This document shows, in pieces, positions 39,324 through 55,699 of a stretch of DNA of 64,000 nt. The notes beneath the pieces are model-generated. The model saw only the letters and a list, made by a program, of their open reading frames with translations, searched no databases and was not told the origin of the DNA. The position numbers were made by a program, and so were the translations under genes. The number at the start of each line of letters is the position of its first letter. Within the stretch, counting starts at the first letter, position 1. The stretch is taken from NCBI GenBank assembly GCA_902727895.1, contig CACVAP010000093.1, forward strand, positions 106,353 to 170,352, in the 5' to 3' direction. This DNA is from an uncultured Sulfurovum sp. GTDB taxonomy: Bacteria; Campylobacterota; Campylobacteria; Campylobacterales; Sulfurovaceae.

Positions 39324-40858
39324 AAGTAATACATGACATCGGTGAACCTGATATCCTAATTCCCTGTGAAGGAACTTTTCCTTATGTACGAGGGGGTGTT
39401 TCTTCATGGATTGCACAACTTATGGCTGGGTTACCTCAATACAAGTTTGGTATTGTTTTTATTGGAAGTAAGCGTGAAGAGTATTCACCTAAACCTTTAT
39501 TTCCATTTCCTGACAATCTTGTTTACGTCATAGAAACTTTTATGTTTGACGAAGAAGAAAAGCCACCTATTAAAGCAATTAATGGTGATCCAAAAAACTT
39601 TGAAGAGATAGAAAAACTCTATGAATGGTTTAAAAATAAAAAAGATAAAACAGCCTTTCCTCAAGAAATAAAAAGTTTAGATTTTTATCTTAAAAAAGTA
39701 ACTGAATTAGAATTTTTATTTAGCCGTGAAGCCTGGTTCTTTATTTCTAACAAAAATACCCAAAACTGTAGTGAAATACCATTTTTAGATTATTTTTGGA
39801 CAGTACGAAGCATCCACATTCCTATTTGGAAAATAGCCAAGCTGGCTAAAGTTATTAAAGATAAAGGTCGTGTTATTCACGCTCCCTCTACGGGTTATGC
39901 TGGTTTTTTGGCCACTATTATTGCCAATGAAACAGGCAAACCTTTTATCTTAACTGAACATGGTATTTATACCAAAGAGCGAAAAATTGACCTCATCTCC
40001 TCTTCTTTAACCTATTATAAAAAACTAAACCTGTTTAGGGAGTCAGCTGAAGACAACTACATCCAAAGCATGTGGGTACGTTTTTTTGAAGGTATTGGAA
40101 AAATGAGTTATGAAAAAGCCAATCCTATACTCTCACTGTTTGGTGTGGCAAAAGAGACACAAATTGCTTATGGAGCAGATGCTAGCTTATGTACAGTAAT
40201 TCCCAATGGCGTCGATGTTCATAAATTAGGTGCTACGCTAAAAAATCGTCCAAAAGGTGTACCAAAAATCATTACACTTATTGGTCGCGTTGTTTCCATT
40301 AAAGACATTAAAACATTTGTACGAGCAATTCAAATTACAGCACAAACCATTCCAGATGTTGAAGCATGGATTGTAGGACCAGACGATGAGGAAAAGACCT
40401 ATGCCCAAGAGTGTCGAGAGCTTATTGACATCATTGATGTTAAAGATCATATTAAATTTTTAGGTTTTCAAAACATTGCTGATATCTTACCCCAAAGTGG
40501 GGTCTTAACCCTTACGTCTATTAGTGAGGGTATGCCTCTGGTTATCTTAGAAGGTTTTGCAGCTGGAGTACCTTGTGTTGCTACCGATGTTGGTTCTTGT
40601 AAAGAATTGGTTTACGGAGGGGAAGACCCTGAAGACAAAGCCTTAGGTTCGGCTGGTAGTGTTTGTCAAATTGCCAATGTTGAAGAGTTAGCCAAAGGTT
40701 ACATAGAATTACTAACCAATGAGGAACGCTGGCTTGAAGCACAAGCCGTTGCCATTAAACGGGTAAATACTTTCTATACCCAAGAACTATTTCTAAATAA
40801 TTATCAAAAAATTTATGAAGACACTTTTTCCAAATTGGAGTCAACATGGCAGGAATAG
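39320..40858 (+). CDS. pelF: PelF glycosyltransferase
   Basis: 512 residues, GT4. It has the PelF opening DILIPCEGTFPYVRGGVSSW, IPNGVDVHKLG, and a clean EX7E in ISEGMPLVILEGFAAGVPCV. It is the cytosolic enzyme that polymerises N-acetylhexosamine for Pel. The start is GTG at 39320, with GGAG upstream, and it shares GTGA with the pelE stop. The end overlaps pelG by 13 bases. Confidence 0.93.
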   Translation: MKVIHDIGEPDILIPCEGTFPYVRGGVSSWIAQLMAGLPQYKFGIVFIGSKREEYSPKPLFPFPDNLVYVIETFMFDEEEKPPIKAINGDPKNFEEIEKLYEWFKNKKDKTAFPQEIKSLDFYLKKVTELEFLFSREAWFFISNKNTQNCSEIPFLDYFWTVRSIHIPIWKIAKLAKVIKDKGRVIHAPSTGYAGFLATIIANETGKPFILTEHGIYTKERKIDLISSSLTYYKKLNLFRESAEDNYIQSMWVRFFEGIGKMSYEKANPILSLFGVAKETQIAYGADASLCTVIPNGVDVHKLGATLKNRPKGVPKIITLIGRVVSIKDIKTFVRAIQITAQTIPDVEAWIVGPDDEEKTYAQECRELIDIIDVKDHIKFLGFQNIADILPQSGVLTLTSISEGMPLVILEGFAAGVPCVATDVGSCKELVYGGEDPEDKALGSAGSVCQIANVEELAKGYIELLTNEERWLEAQAVAIKRVNTFYTQELFLNNYQKIYEDTFSKLESTWQE

Positions 40859-42246
40859 GATTTGAACTTAAACAAATTCTCAAAGAGAAGTCTTTGGCTT
40901 CTGTTTTTAAAACCTTTGGATACTCTGCTGTTCTAAGTTCAGGTCCATGGGTTATCTCCATGATTATTATTTTGGGTATTGGTCTTTCAAACATCTATCT
41001 CTACCATACCCAAGATCCTTCACAAACCATGCTAAAAGCTTCTGTTACCTATGTATCTGCCTTAGCCATTAGTTCTGTGTATACAGGTTTTTTCCAACTT
41101 CCTTTCACCCGTTTTGTTGCTGACAGAATGTATGAAAAACGACACTATTTAATCTTACCCAACTTTATTGGTACCATTATTTTAACCATTGCTGGAGGCT
41201 TTGTTATTGCTTTTCCTCTGGCTATTTTTCTTTTTGACAGCCAATCGAATCTCTTTGTACTACTCTATACCACCATGTTTATTGTACTCTCCTGTGTTTG
41301 GGTTGCTAACATTTTGGCTGCCAGTTTAAAACTCTATAAACAAGTTATTATTTTCTACCTATTGGGTTACTCACTGGTATACCTTTGTGCCTATCTACTA
41401 AGAGATTATGGACTTGAAGGTTTACTCATTTCCTTTATTATAGGGAATTCTTTACTTTTTATTTTACTATTCTTAGGGATTATCTACTACTACCCTTCGT
41501 CTAACAAAGAAAACCAACGCTTTATTCGTTTTGATGTTATTCAACAAACTTATGGAAAGTTTTACTGGAAACTTGGTTTTTCAGGGATGTTTTATAACAT
41601 TGCCATTTGGGTTGATAAAGTCATCTTTTGGTTTACCCCTATTGTTGGGTACATGGTTATTGACAAGCTTCATGCTTCTATGGTCTACGACTTTCCTATC
41701 TTTTTAGCCTACCTCTCTATTATCCCAGGAATGGCGATTTTCTTCTTTAGGTTAGAAGTAGATTTTGCCAGTTCTTACGAAAAGTTTTACCGTGCCATTA
41801 ACAAACATGGAACGCTCAAGCAGATTAAATATCATAAAAAAGGGATGATTACAGCCGTCACCAAAAGTATTCACGAAATACTCTTTGTACAGGGAATGTT
41901 TAACATCTTAATTTTCTTAAGTGCTGAACAGTTGTTTGAACTTTTATCATTACCAAAACTCTATCTTCCTCTTTTCTATGTCGATGTTATTGGGGTTCAA
42001 TTACAATTAGGGTTCATGTCTATTTTAGCCTACCTTTACTACTTAGACCGACAAAAAGAAGCCCTACTTTACACCCTTGCCTTTGTCTTACTGAATGCCT
42101 TACTTACTTGGATAAGTATTCAATTAGGACCTTACTTTTATGGTTACGGATATGCTGTTTCCCTACTTATTTTATTTGTAGCAAGTATTCAGACACTAAA
42201 CAAAATTTTACAGGAGTTGGATTATCAAACCTTTATGTTGCAATAA
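40846..42246 (+). CDS. pelG: PelG inner-membrane transporter
   Basis: 466 residues with about 12 membrane helices, MOP superfamily. The N-terminus MAGIGFELKQILKEKS is diagnostic for PelG. It moves the growing Pel chain across the cytoplasmic membrane with PelD, PelE and PelF. The last codons overlap the start region of pelA in another frame. Confidence 0.93.
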   Translation: MAGIGFELKQILKEKSLASVFKTFGYSAVLSSGPWVISMIIILGIGLSNIYLYHTQDPSQTMLKASVTYVSALAISSVYTGFFQLPFTRFVADRMYEKRHYLILPNFIGTIILTIAGGFVIAFPLAIFLFDSQSNLFVLLYTTMFIVLSCVWVANILAASLKLYKQVIIFYLLGYSLVYLCAYLLRDYGLEGLLISFIIGNSLLFILLFLGIIYYYPSSNKENQRFIRFDVIQQTYGKFYWKLGFSGMFYNIAIWVDKVIFWFTPIVGYMVIDKLHASMVYDFPIFLAYLSIIPGMAIFFFRLEVDFASSYEKFYRAINKHGTLKQIKYHKKGMITAVTKSIHEILFVQGMFNILIFLSAEQLFELLSLPKLYLPLFYVDVIGVQLQLGFMSILAYLYYLDRQKEALLYTLAFVLLNALLTWISIQLGPYFYGYGYAVSLLILFVASIQTLNKILQELDYQTFMLQ

Positions 42247-44971
42247 AATAGTATCACTCTTAGTCATACTCTTTTCAGGACTCTTCGCACAAACAGAATC
42301 AAGTGAACGCTATGCTTTTATTTATAGTAAAAATATTGATGACAGATTTATAAATTTCTATGACAAAGTAGTCGTTGAAGCTGACTCCATTGATAATATC
42401 TATGCCATACGTTATCCTGAAAAAATGGTTGCCTATGTGAGTGTTGGAGAGATTGAACCTTGGAGAAAAACAAAAACACCTTACCAAAAATCATGGGTAC
42501 TCTCTGAAAACAAAACATGGAATTCCTTGGTTGCTGACTTAAATCAAGAGGCATATCAAGCGTTTATATTTGAACGTATTGCGAAGCTACACAAAATGGG
42601 TTACCGTCACTTCTTCTTAGATACCATGGATTCATATCATGTCACAGCAGAAGATAAAAAGCTATTTAACAGCCAACAAAAAGCACTGGTTTCTTTTATC
42701 CATAAATTACATAAGAAATATCCTAAATCCAAACTCATTGTCAACCGTGGATTTGAACTTTTAGACAAAATTCATAAAGAGATCCATGCTGTGGTAGCAG
42801 AAAGTCTGATTGCCCGTTATAATCATGCAGAAAAATCTTATGTTATGGTGCCTAAAGCTGACCATGATTGGTTACTAGCAAATTTTAAAAAAGCACAAGA
42901 GTATGGATTAGAAGCGATTTCTATAGAATACACGAACAAGTCAACCAAAACACGTCTACACATTGCAAAAAGAGTTAAAGCCCTAGGCATTGTTCCTTAT
43001 GTTACGGATGGCTTGCTTCAAGAACAAGGCGAATGTGAAATTGAACGTATTCGTCGTGATGTACTGGTCTTAATCAATCAATCTGTTTTTAAAGAAAAAA
43101 ACCCTATTTACTCAGATGCTCACCTTGCCATCTCTATGCCCATTGAACACTATGGATATGTGCCTATTTTATATGACATTTCAAGCAAAGAACTTCCCGA
43201 ACGTATTGAAGACCGATACCATTCGGTCATTGTATGGGTAGGAGGAGAAACTAAAAACAATGCTAAGCTTTATGAATGGGCATTAAAAGCCAAAGAAAAA
43301 AACATAAAAGTCCTCTTTTTAGACAACTTTTCTTACCTTGGTAAAAATGAACAGCTTCAAGCCTTTGGTTTAAAAAAAGAAACCAACAAGAACAAGCTAA
43401 CTGATAAGAGTGAAGTGAAGTATCATACTAGCTATGCACCTTATGAAGTTCCATTTAAGGGTAGTTACTACGACGAGTTATTGACAGTAGAAAATGCCAA
43501 AGAAGTACTTAAAATAAACTATAAAAACAAACAAACTGCGACACCAATGGCGATTACACCTTGGGGTGGTTATGCTTTATACTCTTCTTTTCTCATCACC
43601 ATTGACAACGTAATCCATTGGACTGTTAACCCTTACCAATTCATAAAAGAAGCCCTTCAATTTGATGAAATTCCTATGCCTGACCCAACCACAGAAGCAG
43701 GTAGACGAATTTTATTTACACACATTGATGGTGATGGTTTTGTAGAGTTTGTACGTATGGAACGTGAATCTTTATCCATGGAATACTTAATTAAACATAT
43801 TTATAAAAAATATCAAATTCCTCATACCATTTCACTTATTCAAGGAGAAATGCAACACCTTTTTCCTAAGCTAACAACACGTATGGAAGATGTGGCACGT
43901 GAACTCTATGAAATACCTTGGATTGAACCAGCGAGTCATACGCTTTCGCATCCTTTTTATTGGGCAAAGGTTATAAAGTCTGAAAATGCTTCACCCAAGA
44001 AAGGTAAGCACTACCATTTACCCATTAAGAATTATCATTTTTCTTTAAAAAGAGAAACCATTGACTCGGTAGACTATGTATTGAACTTAGCTCCAAAGTC
44101 AAAACAAAAAGAACGCATCATGTTCTGGTCAGGAGACTGTCAACCTCCTAAGTCTGTACTTGAATATGTTGAGAAAAATGGCATTATTACTATGAATGGT
44201 GGAGACACAACGATACAAAAAAAACATCCAACACTGAACCATGTTGCACCCTTTGGGCTACAACATGATGAATATTGGCAAATCTACACAGGTCAACAAA
44301 ATGAAAATGTCTACACAAACGACTGGTTAGGACCATTTTGGGGTTACCGTAATGTCATTGAAACTTTTGAAATGACAGGAAAACCCTATAGAATTAAACC
44401 TATAAACATCTATTATCATCTTTATATTGCTTCTAAACTGGCTTCATTTAATTCGCTAAAAAAAGTCTATGAATGGGCTGAGAAACAAAAGACTTCGAAA
44501 CTTTATGCTTCTCAATACATTAAAAAAGGACAAGGTTTTTACCGAACTGCTTTAGGAAAAATAGACAATGGTTTTGAAATTAGAAACCAAGGTTTTTTAA
44601 GAACAATGCGTTTTGACAAACACATTAACATTGACATTGCCCAAAGTAAAGGGGTTGCTGGACATAATTTTGACAACAATGCCAGCTATGTTAGCTTTGA
44701 TGCAAGTGGTAAATATAAACTTATTTTAGAAAGGAACAATCGTTCACCTCATCTAATAGACGCTAACGGATGGGTTGAGAAAGTTTTAACAGAGCAACAA
44801 AAGCATACTTTTAAACTCAAAGCCAATGTCCCTTTAGAAGCAAACTTTTATGTACCAAAACCTTGTAAATACTTGCAAAATAAGAACTTTAAAATTAAAA
44901 AAACTAAAGATCACTTAGCTATTTCAAGTTTCAAAGAGCAAGGAGTTACTGTTGTATTCCTCTGTCAATGA
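42224..44971 (+). CDS. pelA: PelA bifunctional hydrolase and deacetylase, non-ATG start
   Basis: 915 residues if translation starts at ATC 42224. From the in-frame stop at 42197 to the first ATG at 42425 there is no ATG, GTG or TTG, yet a signal peptide (about NKIVSLLVILFSGLFA) and the first hydrolase strand ERYAFIYSKNIDD lie in this stretch. AGGAG at 42212 is seven bases before ATC and four before ATT 42221. Hydrolase acids are Asp133 (HFFLDTMD) and Glu193 (AVVAES). The deacetylase has Asp502/504 (THIDGDGF) and His572/His576 (SHTLSHPF). Both activities process Pel in the periplasm. A start at 42425 would remove the signal peptide. Confidence 0.85.
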   Translation: MKPLCCNKIVSLLVILFSGLFAQTESSERYAFIYSKNIDDRFINFYDKVVVEADSIDNIYAIRYPEKMVAYVSVGEIEPWRKTKTPYQKSWVLSENKTWNSLVADLNQEAYQAFIFERIAKLHKMGYRHFFLDTMDSYHVTAEDKKLFNSQQKALVSFIHKLHKKYPKSKLIVNRGFELLDKIHKEIHAVVAESLIARYNHAEKSYVMVPKADHDWLLANFKKAQEYGLEAISIEYTNKSTKTRLHIAKRVKALGIVPYVTDGLLQEQGECEIERIRRDVLVLINQSVFKEKNPIYSDAHLAISMPIEHYGYVPILYDISSKELPERIEDRYHSVIVWVGGETKNNAKLYEWALKAKEKNIKVLFLDNFSYLGKNEQLQAFGLKKETNKNKLTDKSEVKYHTSYAPYEVPFKGSYYDELLTVENAKEVLKINYKNKQTATPMAITPWGGYALYSSFLITIDNVIHWTVNPYQFIKEALQFDEIPMPDPTTEAGRRILFTHIDGDGFVEFVRMERESLSMEYLIKHIYKKYQIPHTISLIQGEMQHLFPKLTTRMEDVARELYEIPWIEPASHTLSHPFYWAKVIKSENASPKKGKHYHLPIKNYHFSLKRETIDSVDYVLNLAPKSKQKERIMFWSGDCQPPKSVLEYVEKNGIITMNGGDTTIQKKHPTLNHVAPFGLQHDEYWQIYTGQQNENVYTNDWLGPFWGYRNVIETFEMTGKPYRIKPINIYYHLYIASKLASFNSLKKVYEWAEKQKTSKLYASQYIKKGQGFYRTALGKIDNGFEIRNQGFLRTMRFDKHINIDIAQSKGVAGHNFDNNASYVSFDASGKYKLILERNNRSPHLIDANGWVEKVLTEQQKHTFKLKANVPLEANFYVPKPCKYLQNKNFKIKKTKDHLAISSFKEQGVTVVFLCQ

Positions 44972-47900
44972 TTATGAAAAACACAAATCCATTCTTTCGT
45001 TAAAAGAAGTCCTAGGAATTGTTATTGTTTTTTCATTTATGCTTTATTTACTTTTTCCTAAAGGCAGTATTCAAAACTTTTTAGGAGGAGAAGGAGAACA
45101 TTCTAACCTCTCTATTCATTACTTGGAAAGTTTGGTTCTTTATCAGCCTGACAATGTTGATTTAAAAATGATTTTAATCGAAAAATATACACAGACAGGA
45201 AAAGAACATAAAGCTTTAGCACTAAACCATAAACTTATTGAAGGCACTCAAGAAAAAAAACTACTCACACAGCTTTACAAAATAGAATACTTACTTGAAA
45301 AGACACTTTATTTCCAAAATTCTAATACACAAAAACTTGAGAAACTAAAAAACAAACTACTTGCCTATTATAACTATACAGAAGGAGAAAGAGACCACCT
45401 TTTCTTTTTTGCTGAATCTTCTAGCATTGACTATAGTTATTTAATGTATGACTCTCTATTACATTTTATGGAAGAGAAGCCAGAACTCGTAGACTATGAA
45501 CTTGAAAAAATGGCTTTTGACTTAGCCAACAAACTGGGCTATAAAGAAGAAGCACATGTCTATTTGCAAAAACTTATTAAATATCCTGAATTGGATGATG
45601 AACTAAGTGAATACCTTGTCTATTCTCTTTTTGAACGGGGTGAATTTAGCAAAGCTAGAAAAATTACAACCGAACTTTTCTTACGAAGTGAAACAGAAGA
45701 CGAACTAACACAATATTTTCACTTGGCACTCTACACTTTAGTACAAGACAAAACCAAAACCTCTACTGATGTAAGTCAACTTATTCAAGACTATGCCAAT
45801 TTAAAAGATTTACTTTCTCCTGATGTTATTATTATTTTAAGTACTTTACTAGAACTAGGTGATTCAAAAGAAGCTGCTAACTTTGCTGTTAATATGTTCT
45901 ACACAAACCCTGACAGCTTTGATGAAACAGGCATGGACATGGCACTTAAAAGTTTACTCTACAATTCGGAACTTGAACATGCCCAAGCCTTAAGTTTTTT
46001 TGCAGAAGCCAAATTTAAAAAAGAGAAATATCTTGATCAGACCATTCAACTCTCTCTATGGCTAGGAGACAATGAAGCTGTAGGTGCTTTAAATAATCAA
46101 GGTTACTATGAATACAATCCTAAAAAATATGAACAATACTTTTTAAAGAGTGAAAATTTCGACTTTGACTATGAAATTTTAGGGTATATTTTTAAGAAAA
46201 AGGTTGCAGAGAAAAACTATAAATTCATTGATAAAATGGCAAACTACTATGAGTATACGGGAGAGATAGATGAGGCAGAGGCATATTTTACTGAGCTACA
46301 TCACAAAACAAAACAACAAAAAGCCACCTACTATGCCATCGAATTTTCACATAAAAACAGCCATTTTGAAAAAGGCTTAGCACTTTATAAACAATACAAG
46401 TCAAAGTATGGAATAGATTCTAAATTACATGAACTTTCCATAAAAAGGCTTTTAGCACTTAAACGATTTAGCGAAGCCTATGCCATGACAAAAACAGTTG
46501 AAGAAAAAAACTTTCTAAAAAAGAAACAACGCTTTACTGACTTAGCTTGGTTCGAAAAAGACTATGCGTATCTACATCAAAAATTGTGGGACTTTGAGGC
46601 TAAAAATGTATTAGCAGCTACAGACTATGAACATTTTCTTCTTTTAGAAAAAGGCTTAACTCAAGGTACTAAATTAAATTACCTTTACAAGCAAGCATGG
46701 AAAGAAACACATAATGCATACTATCTTACGGCAGTTATGTACAAACTACTTCAAGAAAAAAAGTTTAAAGAATTTAAACAGACGTTAAATGCTTTAAATA
46801 AAAAAGAAAAAAGTATTGTTAACAATAATATTAATCTTCAGGTTTTACTGGCTGAGTACCATGTACAAAATGCCAATATACCTTTAGCACTTAAAAGTTA
46901 TAAAAAGATATTTAAACTGGCACCAAATAAAATTAGCAGTCATGAATCTTATCTTTGGTTCCTACTAGACAACCAAGAGAATCATCCTAAGCTAAAGACA
47001 AAAATAGCAATACATTTAAAATATCTTGAAGAACATCCAATCTTACGCGAACAAATAGGACTTGCCTCAGTAGTTGCAGCGATGAGTAATAGACAACATA
47101 AACTAGCACACAAATGGGTAAAAAAACTCTTACAAAAGAATCCTAGAAATAAAGAATACCTGAGTATTGCCAAAGACATAAAGACCTTAGAACAAGAAAT
47201 ACTTTATGCCCGTTATGACAAAACACTTAATCCTGAGTATCTTAATGCCCAAGTGAATTTCAAAACAAAACATCTTGGTTCTGCCCTAACTGTTAATGAA
47301 GCAGATTTTTCTTACCAATGGAAGCTTTATCAGAACATCAAATCTAAGATTATGCTCAAACATTATGAATATAAAAATGCTAAAGGAAGAACAAATAGAC
47401 AAACAGCCTTTGAAGTAAACCTGAAAAATTCTGATAAAAAATTCCTTTGGGACTTTAGTTTAGCACAAACAACTGCTAGAAAAGATTTTACATCTGCCTC
47501 ATTAAACTTAGGGTACAGCACCCATAATTTCAATGTTAACCTCAATTCTAAATACAAAAGCAAGACGCGCCTAACCCCTCAATTGGAGCAAAATGCATTA
47601 GAAGATTCCTTAGCACTTAATCTCCAAACCTATATTAACAAACGTACCTCTTTTAGCTTTCTTGCACAACAAAGTGAATTTGAAACATTGGATGGCTTTA
47701 ATGCAGGTGAAGCCAAGAAAATACAACTAAACGCTAATTACATTTTACGTTCTGGATACCCAGATATATCCTTTAATACCTATGTTAGTCACAACCAGTT
47801 TTCGAAAAATATTTCACAAGATTTTTCTGAATTTGGAATAGCCTCTAGTATTGGTACAGCCCGTCAACATACTTTGAACTCTTCATGGAAACCTTTTGGA

Positions 47901-48071
47901 ACCGTTGCACTAGCCATAAATGATGAACAGAACCTTGGTGGCTCATTGACTTTTGGTGTTTCTAAAATGTTAACAGGAGATGACTCAATTGATGTTCTTT
48001 TTGACTACTATAACGGTATAGGTGTGATAAGTGAGCCTATTTATGGGGTGAATGTTAAGTATAGGTTTTAA
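44952..48071 (+). CDS. pelB: PelB outer-membrane porin with TPR superhelix
   Basis: 1039 residues. An N-terminal membrane helix (EVLGIVIVFSFMLYLLF) leads to a long TPR-like superhelix (about 60-740), then a C-terminal beta-barrel of alternating strands ending in YGVNVKYRF with the terminal Phe of outer-membrane proteins. PelB is the Pel export channel and guides PelA. The start is TTG at 44952 with AGGAG six bases before; nearby ATGs are out of frame. It overlaps pelA by 20 bases and is the last gene of the operon. Confidence 0.85.
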   Translation: MYSSVNDYEKHKSILSLKEVLGIVIVFSFMLYLLFPKGSIQNFLGGEGEHSNLSIHYLESLVLYQPDNVDLKMILIEKYTQTGKEHKALALNHKLIEGTQEKKLLTQLYKIEYLLEKTLYFQNSNTQKLEKLKNKLLAYYNYTEGERDHLFFFAESSSIDYSYLMYDSLLHFMEEKPELVDYELEKMAFDLANKLGYKEEAHVYLQKLIKYPELDDELSEYLVYSLFERGEFSKARKITTELFLRSETEDELTQYFHLALYTLVQDKTKTSTDVSQLIQDYANLKDLLSPDVIIILSTLLELGDSKEAANFAVNMFYTNPDSFDETGMDMALKSLLYNSELEHAQALSFFAEAKFKKEKYLDQTIQLSLWLGDNEAVGALNNQGYYEYNPKKYEQYFLKSENFDFDYEILGYIFKKKVAEKNYKFIDKMANYYEYTGEIDEAEAYFTELHHKTKQQKATYYAIEFSHKNSHFEKGLALYKQYKSKYGIDSKLHELSIKRLLALKRFSEAYAMTKTVEEKNFLKKKQRFTDLAWFEKDYAYLHQKLWDFEAKNVLAATDYEHFLLLEKGLTQGTKLNYLYKQAWKETHNAYYLTAVMYKLLQEKKFKEFKQTLNALNKKEKSIVNNNINLQVLLAEYHVQNANIPLALKSYKKIFKLAPNKISSHESYLWFLLDNQENHPKLKTKIAIHLKYLEEHPILREQIGLASVVAAMSNRQHKLAHKWVKKLLQKNPRNKEYLSIAKDIKTLEQEILYARYDKTLNPEYLNAQVNFKTKHLGSALTVNEADFSYQWKLYQNIKSKIMLKHYEYKNAKGRTNRQTAFEVNLKNSDKKFLWDFSLAQTTARKDFTSASLNLGYSTHNFNVNLNSKYKSKTRLTPQLEQNALEDSLALNLQTYINKRTSFSFLAQQSEFETLDGFNAGEAKKIQLNANYILRSGYPDISFNTYVSHNQFSKNISQDFSEFGIASSIGTARQHTLNSSWKPFGTVALAINDEQNLGGSLTFGVSKMLTGDDSIDVLFDYYNGIGVISEPIYGVNVKYRF

Positions 48072-55145: not shown

Positions 55146-55309
55146 ATACACTTATAAAAATTAAAAATAACTTTTTAAAATATTATACCAGTCAGATTTA
55201 AATCAAATAATAATATTTATGTAAAATATAATTTATAATATTTTAATTTAAGAAAAAATTAATATATATCTCTTTATACTCTTATTCTATATTTAATAAG
55301 GGATTATTC

Positions 55310-55699
55310 ATCAAAACACTACTACTAACTATTTTATTATCTACTTTCGCATTTTGCGATATATCAATTTATATTTCACATAACAATACACTTTCCAAAG
55401 TAAGTCAAAAAGATTTAGCAAACTTATATCTTAAAAAAACAGATAAAATCAATGGTATTAAAGTTATTCCAGTGGACAGTCAAGATAAAAAACTATTTCA
55501 AGAATTTTATAAAAAAATAGTCAAGAAAAACCCAAAACAACTTCATGCCTATTGGATGAAACAAATCTATAGAGGAAATACGCAACCCCCTAAAAAACTT
55601 TCTCCGTCAGCTATCAAAAAAGCAATGAAGAGTAATAAGTCTATTATTGCTTACGATAAAAATCCAAAAACTGGTCGTATTCTTTTAACTATTAAATAA
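55310..55699 (+). CDS. PstS-like periplasmic substrate-binding protein, non-ATG start
   Basis: 129 residues from ATC 55310. The frame from the stop at 55244 contains no ATG, GTG or TTG before a GTG at 55472, inside the folded domain. A signal peptide (IKTLLLTILLSTFAFC) precedes ISIYISHN, LANLYLKK and KVIPVDSQDKKLFQEFY, then LHAYWMKQIYRGNTQPPKKL, the pattern of short PstS-like phosphate-binding domains. AAGGGA at 55298 is six bases before ATC. Placed between a HPt gene and a hybrid kinase, it may be the sensory binding protein of that kinase. Confidence 0.72.
   Translation: MKTLLLTILLSTFAFCDISIYISHNNTLSKVSQKDLANLYLKKTDKINGIKVIPVDSQDKKLFQEFYKKIVKKNPKQLHAYWMKQIYRGNTQPPKKLSPSAIKKAMKSNKSIIAYDKNPKTGRILLTIK

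Follow-up and report, generated by a model that had tools for sequence, protein, structure and literature searches.

The biofilm-polysaccharide gene pelA of an uncultured Sulfurovum sp. raises a simple question: at which codon does its translation begin? We examined it in a 64,000-nucleotide stretch of DNA (the window) from a draft assembly of 105 contigs. All features given below lie on the + strand. The pelA frame (42200-44971) is closed on its 5' side by an in-frame TAA (42197..42199), and the next ATG, GTG or TTG is an ATG at 42425..42427, 75 codons past that stop; the sequence thus confirms the absence of a standard start noted in the preliminary description. In its product and its surroundings the gene resembles pelA of Pel operons. 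An N-terminal GH114-type hydrolase domain is present (PF03537, Glyco_hydro_114, E 2.1e-18); the C-terminal part has no Pfam match at 1e-3, and the length of 915 residues fits a PelA with a deacetylase domain. Pfam matches identify the neighbours as pelF (DUF3492 and GT4), pelG (40846..42246; PelG, 2.8e-126) directly 5' of pelA, and the beta-barrel gene pelB (44952..48071; B-barrel_PelB_C, 5.4e-18) as the 3' neighbour in the operon, giving the order pelG-pelA-pelB.

Upstream of ATG 42425 we found a candidate start that the preliminary description had proposed and that the comparisons below support. A Shine-Dalgarno motif, AGGAG (42212..42216), is followed after seven nucleotides (TTGGATT) by ATC (42224..42226) and then AAA, exactly as first described. 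Both the motif and the ATC are held within the last codons of PelG (Q-E-L-D-Y-Q-T-F-M-L-Q-stop); pelG ends at 42246, and a pelA gene revised to 42224..44971 (915 codons) overlaps it by 23 nucleotides (42224..42246) in the +1 frame. The 67 codons from ATC 42224 to ATG 42425 encode a signal-peptide-like N-terminus, IKPLCCNKIVSLLVILFSGLFA (42224..42289), whose first residue is Met if ATC initiates, and the conserved hydrolase start RYAFIYSKNIDDRFINFYDKVVVEAD. That an export signal and the beginning of the hydrolase are encoded here had also been claimed, and both segments are kept in all PelA homologues of the genus; an n/h/c-region pattern is visible by inspection, without a predictor, in an alignment of 18 PelA N-termini. 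A start at ATG 42425 would cost the protein its signal peptide together with about 45 residues that are conserved. We conclude that pelA is very probably translated from AUC 42224 by the initiator tRNA, guided by the strong Shine-Dalgarno motif, and give the grounds for this in turn.

To see how the pelG-pelA junction is built in relatives, we compared 34 genomes of the genus; relatives with a name in their records are Sulfurovum and other Campylobacterota, and the genomes read are mostly or all metagenome assemblies. PelA occurs in 22 of them and PelG in 23, and 22 junctions are readable. The codon homologous to 42224 is ATC in nine junctions, ATA in five and ATG in five; in the remaining three (L155/L047, L156/L009, L160/L015) the start has been relocated to an ATG of its own further downstream. 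The pelA frame is open in all 14 genomes with ATC or ATA. In nine of these the first standard start lies at least 45 codons into the frame, and in the other five it falls at codon 12-20, within the signal peptide, where it would yield a truncated signal. Seven of the 14 carry an in-frame TAG two codons 5' of the ATC or ATA. The start of pelA is thus bracketed almost to the codon. These 14 sequences are related, so the counts are not independent trials. We also observed one ATG-start pelA (L019/L153, G028) in which about 45 inserted codons (ITELFGNGGFRPEQ...) separate the first residues from the signal-peptide-like core.

Constraint on the Shine-Dalgarno motif is visible in the wobble positions of pelG. 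In the 14 non-AUG genomes, pelG codons -11 and -10 always end in G, producing AGGAG or a close equivalent, and codon -11 keeps its final G while the residue varies between Q, R, K and E (CAG, CGG, AAG, GAG). None of 31 comparable A/G-ending pelG columns is all G, and of 210 columns in the body of pelG with an invariant amino acid just 16 (7.6%) are codon-invariant as well. Tyr460 of PelG is TAT in all 14 genomes, a weak point on its own because the three relocated lineages have TAT too. Across the 14 non-AUG genomes the calculated Shine-Dalgarno duplex energy ranges from -6.9 to -9.5 kcal/mol. Of the three relocated lineages, two show a motif that has decayed through loss of the G (CAA), with energies of -2.9 and -3.6 kcal/mol.

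The overlap also accounts for which codons occur at the start. The third base of the pelA start codon is the first base of the codon for PelG residue 461, such that Glu (GAA/GAG) goes with ATG, Gln (CAA/CAG) with ATC and Lys (AAA) with ATA. Conserved ATC or ATT among the PelA N-termini of relatives had been named as support for the ATC start; ATC is indeed conserved, together with ATA, but ATT never occurs at this codon, since it would create a TAA in the overlapping pelG. Outside the genus but within the order, PelG carries Y-E-T close to its C-terminus in 27 of 27 sampled junctions, and the start codon there is ATG in every case. The ATC of pelA is therefore the exact homologue of an established start rather than a chance match, and ATG is the older state. 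PelG has the same Y-E-T end in Cupriavidus, Azonexus, Caballeronia and Pseudoalteromonas, where there is no overlap, so PelG prefers Glu here independently of pelA, and the genus has lost it. On a PelG tree built without the C-terminus, ATG versus not-ATG requires four changes and the three codons at least eight, and the deepest branches of the genus have ATC or have relocated after Gln. One early loss of ATG followed by later returns is the shortest account, but single-base reversals leave the direction uncertain. In two records (L168 and L169; Cetobacterium and a Fusobacterium plasmid), PelG runs well past its usual end with further membrane-like segments, either a C-terminal extension or a fusion.

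We weighed four other ways to explain the missing start codon. A frameshift near the end of pelG could produce a PelG-PelA fusion and leave the ATC as a mere relic. The two frames do overlap by 23 nucleotides and the pelA frame stretches back to 42200, and a low level of shifting would be compatible with the data; however, the TAG found two codons before the ATN in seven genomes confines any shift to about 25 nucleotides, in which no known slippery motif was seen. Such a fusion would also leave unexplained why the Shine-Dalgarno motif is maintained ahead of non-AUG starts and degenerates once pelA has relocated, and why separate downstream starts evolved in three lineages, and we regard it as very unlikely. 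A start at ATG 42425, with a cytoplasmic or decayed protein in the ATC and ATA genomes, has in its favour that this is the first standard start and the one a gene-finder would choose. We judge it to be a false start: the pN/pS ratio is 0.17-0.19 for PelA residues 23-67, all upstream of 42425 (0.40-0.56 in the signal peptide), which indicates purifying selection on the 67 upstream codons, although within the overlap this conservation is partly that of PelG. The first conserved part of the hydrolase lies upstream of 42425 as well, and the frame is intact over 915 codons, which makes this a very improbable reading. Much the same low probability attaches to initiation at another nearby non-standard codon. 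The ATT at 42221 is likewise an AUH codon, but it lies only 4 nucleotides from AGGAG and is ACT in several relatives (L005, L006, L008 and L016), and the signal peptide contains no conserved candidate codon. Finally, a sequencing or assembly error, the alternative raised in the preliminary description, could in principle hide a standard start near 42224 behind one wrong base or small indel in a draft assembly, but the 14 genomes come from many independent assemblies, their pelG and pelA frames are intact and free of indels, and the error would need to have arisen again and again in the form of two different codons that both keep the frame. This is scarcely credible.

Initiation at AUC 42224 could proceed with ordinary components. 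The AGGAG within the last pelG codons would position the 30S subunit, and the CAU anticodon of the initiator tRNA would pair with the first two bases of AUC, or of AUA in sister species, so that PelA would begin Met-Lys-Pro-Leu and carry its putative export signal. We looked for an altered initiator tRNA as the cause and did not find one: the initiator tRNA is ordinary, with a CAU anticodon, C1/A72 and GGG/CCC, and is present in three copies. Coupling between overlapping genes acts over short distances (PMC10666635), and ribosomes ending pelG 20 nucleotides downstream would probably assist, opening up the structure of the site and perhaps also re-initiating. As for its origin, ATC and ATA would have arisen from AUG when PelG Glu461 (GAA) changed to Gln (CAA) or Lys (AAA), and the strong Shine-Dalgarno motif may have allowed the non-AUG codon to survive through much of the history of the genus. 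Judging from AUA and AUU starts that have been measured, PelA output should be a fraction of what AUG would give and be sensitive to IF3; for repression of pelA by IF3 the analogy is with infC and sigR only. According to PMC12022489, PelA both trims and deacetylates Pel, so one may speculate that low output is tolerable or even useful. It may also be that weak starts are simply tolerated in this genus when a strong Shine-Dalgarno motif is present, comparable to the compensation described for GUG and UUG starts (PMC5622118).

The reading of pelA gains support from the use of AUC elsewhere in the same genome, namely at 55310, in priA and in a DEAD-box helicase gene. A scan of the window for start-less frames identified the first of these, a gene for a small secreted protein without a Pfam match (55310..55699), in which AAGGGA (55298..55303) stands 6 nucleotides before ATC AAA; most of its roughly 25 homologues in the genus have ATG at this codon and two have TTG. 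We then extended the scan to about 1.76 Mb, of which about 800 kb came from the window's genome and 965 kb from G009, a relative. Since a first ortholog scan was swamped by opposite-strand shadow frames, we used a Shine-Dalgarno-anchored scan of frames in which the first standard start lies at least 8 codons past the codon behind the motif. ATC is the commonest codon behind the motif in such frames, occurring in 10 of 77 against an expected 1.4 (1.8%), an enrichment of about 7-fold (p = 1e-6); ATT and ATA are not individually enriched in the same 77 frames. Some of the ATC matches (C31:8660- in the window's genome, G000; C18:111619+ in G009) were discarded in favour of a better-fitting standard start. 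For the window's genome the scan yields at least five AUH-start genes among about 730 reading frames, not all of which are real genes.

Two of the matches were checked across the genus. Of 27 genus genomes, about 20 have ATC, ATT or ATA as the homologous first codon of priA (L299-L328; G000:C86), in most with GAGGAG or AGGAG close on the 5' side; in six a standard start lies at the site or close to it, among them L316 with an ATG at this very codon, and in the window's genome the first standard start lies 41 codons in. Beyond the genus, a priA DNA pattern matched ATH in 23 genomes and ATG in one, counts that are uninformative because a reversed control matched about as often as ATH. The DEAD-box RNA helicase gene (L329-L344; G000:C31:33718) has ATC as its first codon in 12 and ATT in three of 15 genus genomes and ATG there in none, with one (L331) having an additional ATG 20 codons upstream. 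An N-acetylmuramoyl-alanine amidase-like gene has ATC in the window's genome (G000:C31:25909, L238) and ATT in G009:C8 (L256, L298), with a Shine-Dalgarno motif and a signal peptide in both. Further AUC candidates, on the minus strand of G009:C18 (L286-L290 region) and in L268, are a lipoprotein gene (ATC AAA AAA) and a second amidase-like gene (ATC TTT AGT).

Taken together, it is possible, and we propose it tentatively, that AUC, with AUU and AUA, is a regular minor start codon in this genus, at which perhaps 20 genes in each genome begin (pelA, priA, the DEAD-box helicase, the amidase and secreted proteins), as old as the genus and possibly an IF3-sensitive, low-output set. In the bacteria studied to date, fixed AUH starts amount to a handful per genome. 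AUC is a start codon that gene-finders reject, and the priA and helicase cases suggest that essential and secreted proteins of this group are annotated with their N-termini missing, export signals among them; these two cases also make regulation by initiation fidelity directly testable. The pelA start, locked to a residue of the overlapping pelG, for that reason alternates between AUC, AUA and AUG within one genus and offers a natural series for the cost of a weak start and its compensation.

The closest known cases share parts of this arrangement. The IF3 gene infC has AUU, AUC or AUA starts in E. coli, Streptomyces and S. aureus and, like pelA, an AUH start behind a Shine-Dalgarno motif that is conserved within a clade (PMC5472188, PMC13009471); unlike pelA, it is autoregulated by its own product, and in the present genus infC, read as a control, appears to start with TTG, which opens its frame in the genomes read (L085-L114). 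Staphylococcus ccpN (AUA) and cvfC1 (AUU), mapped by Ribo-Ret, also combine a conserved AUH start with a strong Shine-Dalgarno motif, and reach about 10% of AUG activity in poor medium, while in rich medium ccpN attains up to 30% (PMC13009471). Their initiation has been shown experimentally, whereas for pelA sequence comparison shows the position and conservation of the codon and the open frame; neither gene is nested in an upstream gene, in contrast to pelA with its alternation of AUC, AUA and AUG. Streptomyces sigR, whose GTC start is repressed by IF3 (PMC5472188), resembles pelA as a conserved non-standard operon start with a strong Shine-Dalgarno motif that gene-finders miss, but its codon is GUC rather than AUH, and a role in the sigma/anti-sigma ratio is proven for sigR. 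In Listeria, as in the present genus, several conserved genes of one lineage have fixed AUH starts: six of 2265 conserved genes have fixed non-canonical starts, with infC ATT and rnhC ATC confirmed (PMC13068326), although the genes are others and the present figure is at least five in about 730 frames, some of them not real genes. In a survey of 36 genome groups, just one of 61,358 reconstructed AUG starts had switched to AUU (PMC5622118). Compared with the Pel operons of Pseudomonas aeruginosa and others, the present pelA likewise encodes a GH114-type hydrolase, with a putative export signal, beside pelF, pelG and pelB, and is set apart by the order pelG-pelA-pelB with its overlap and by a start at AUC or AUA.
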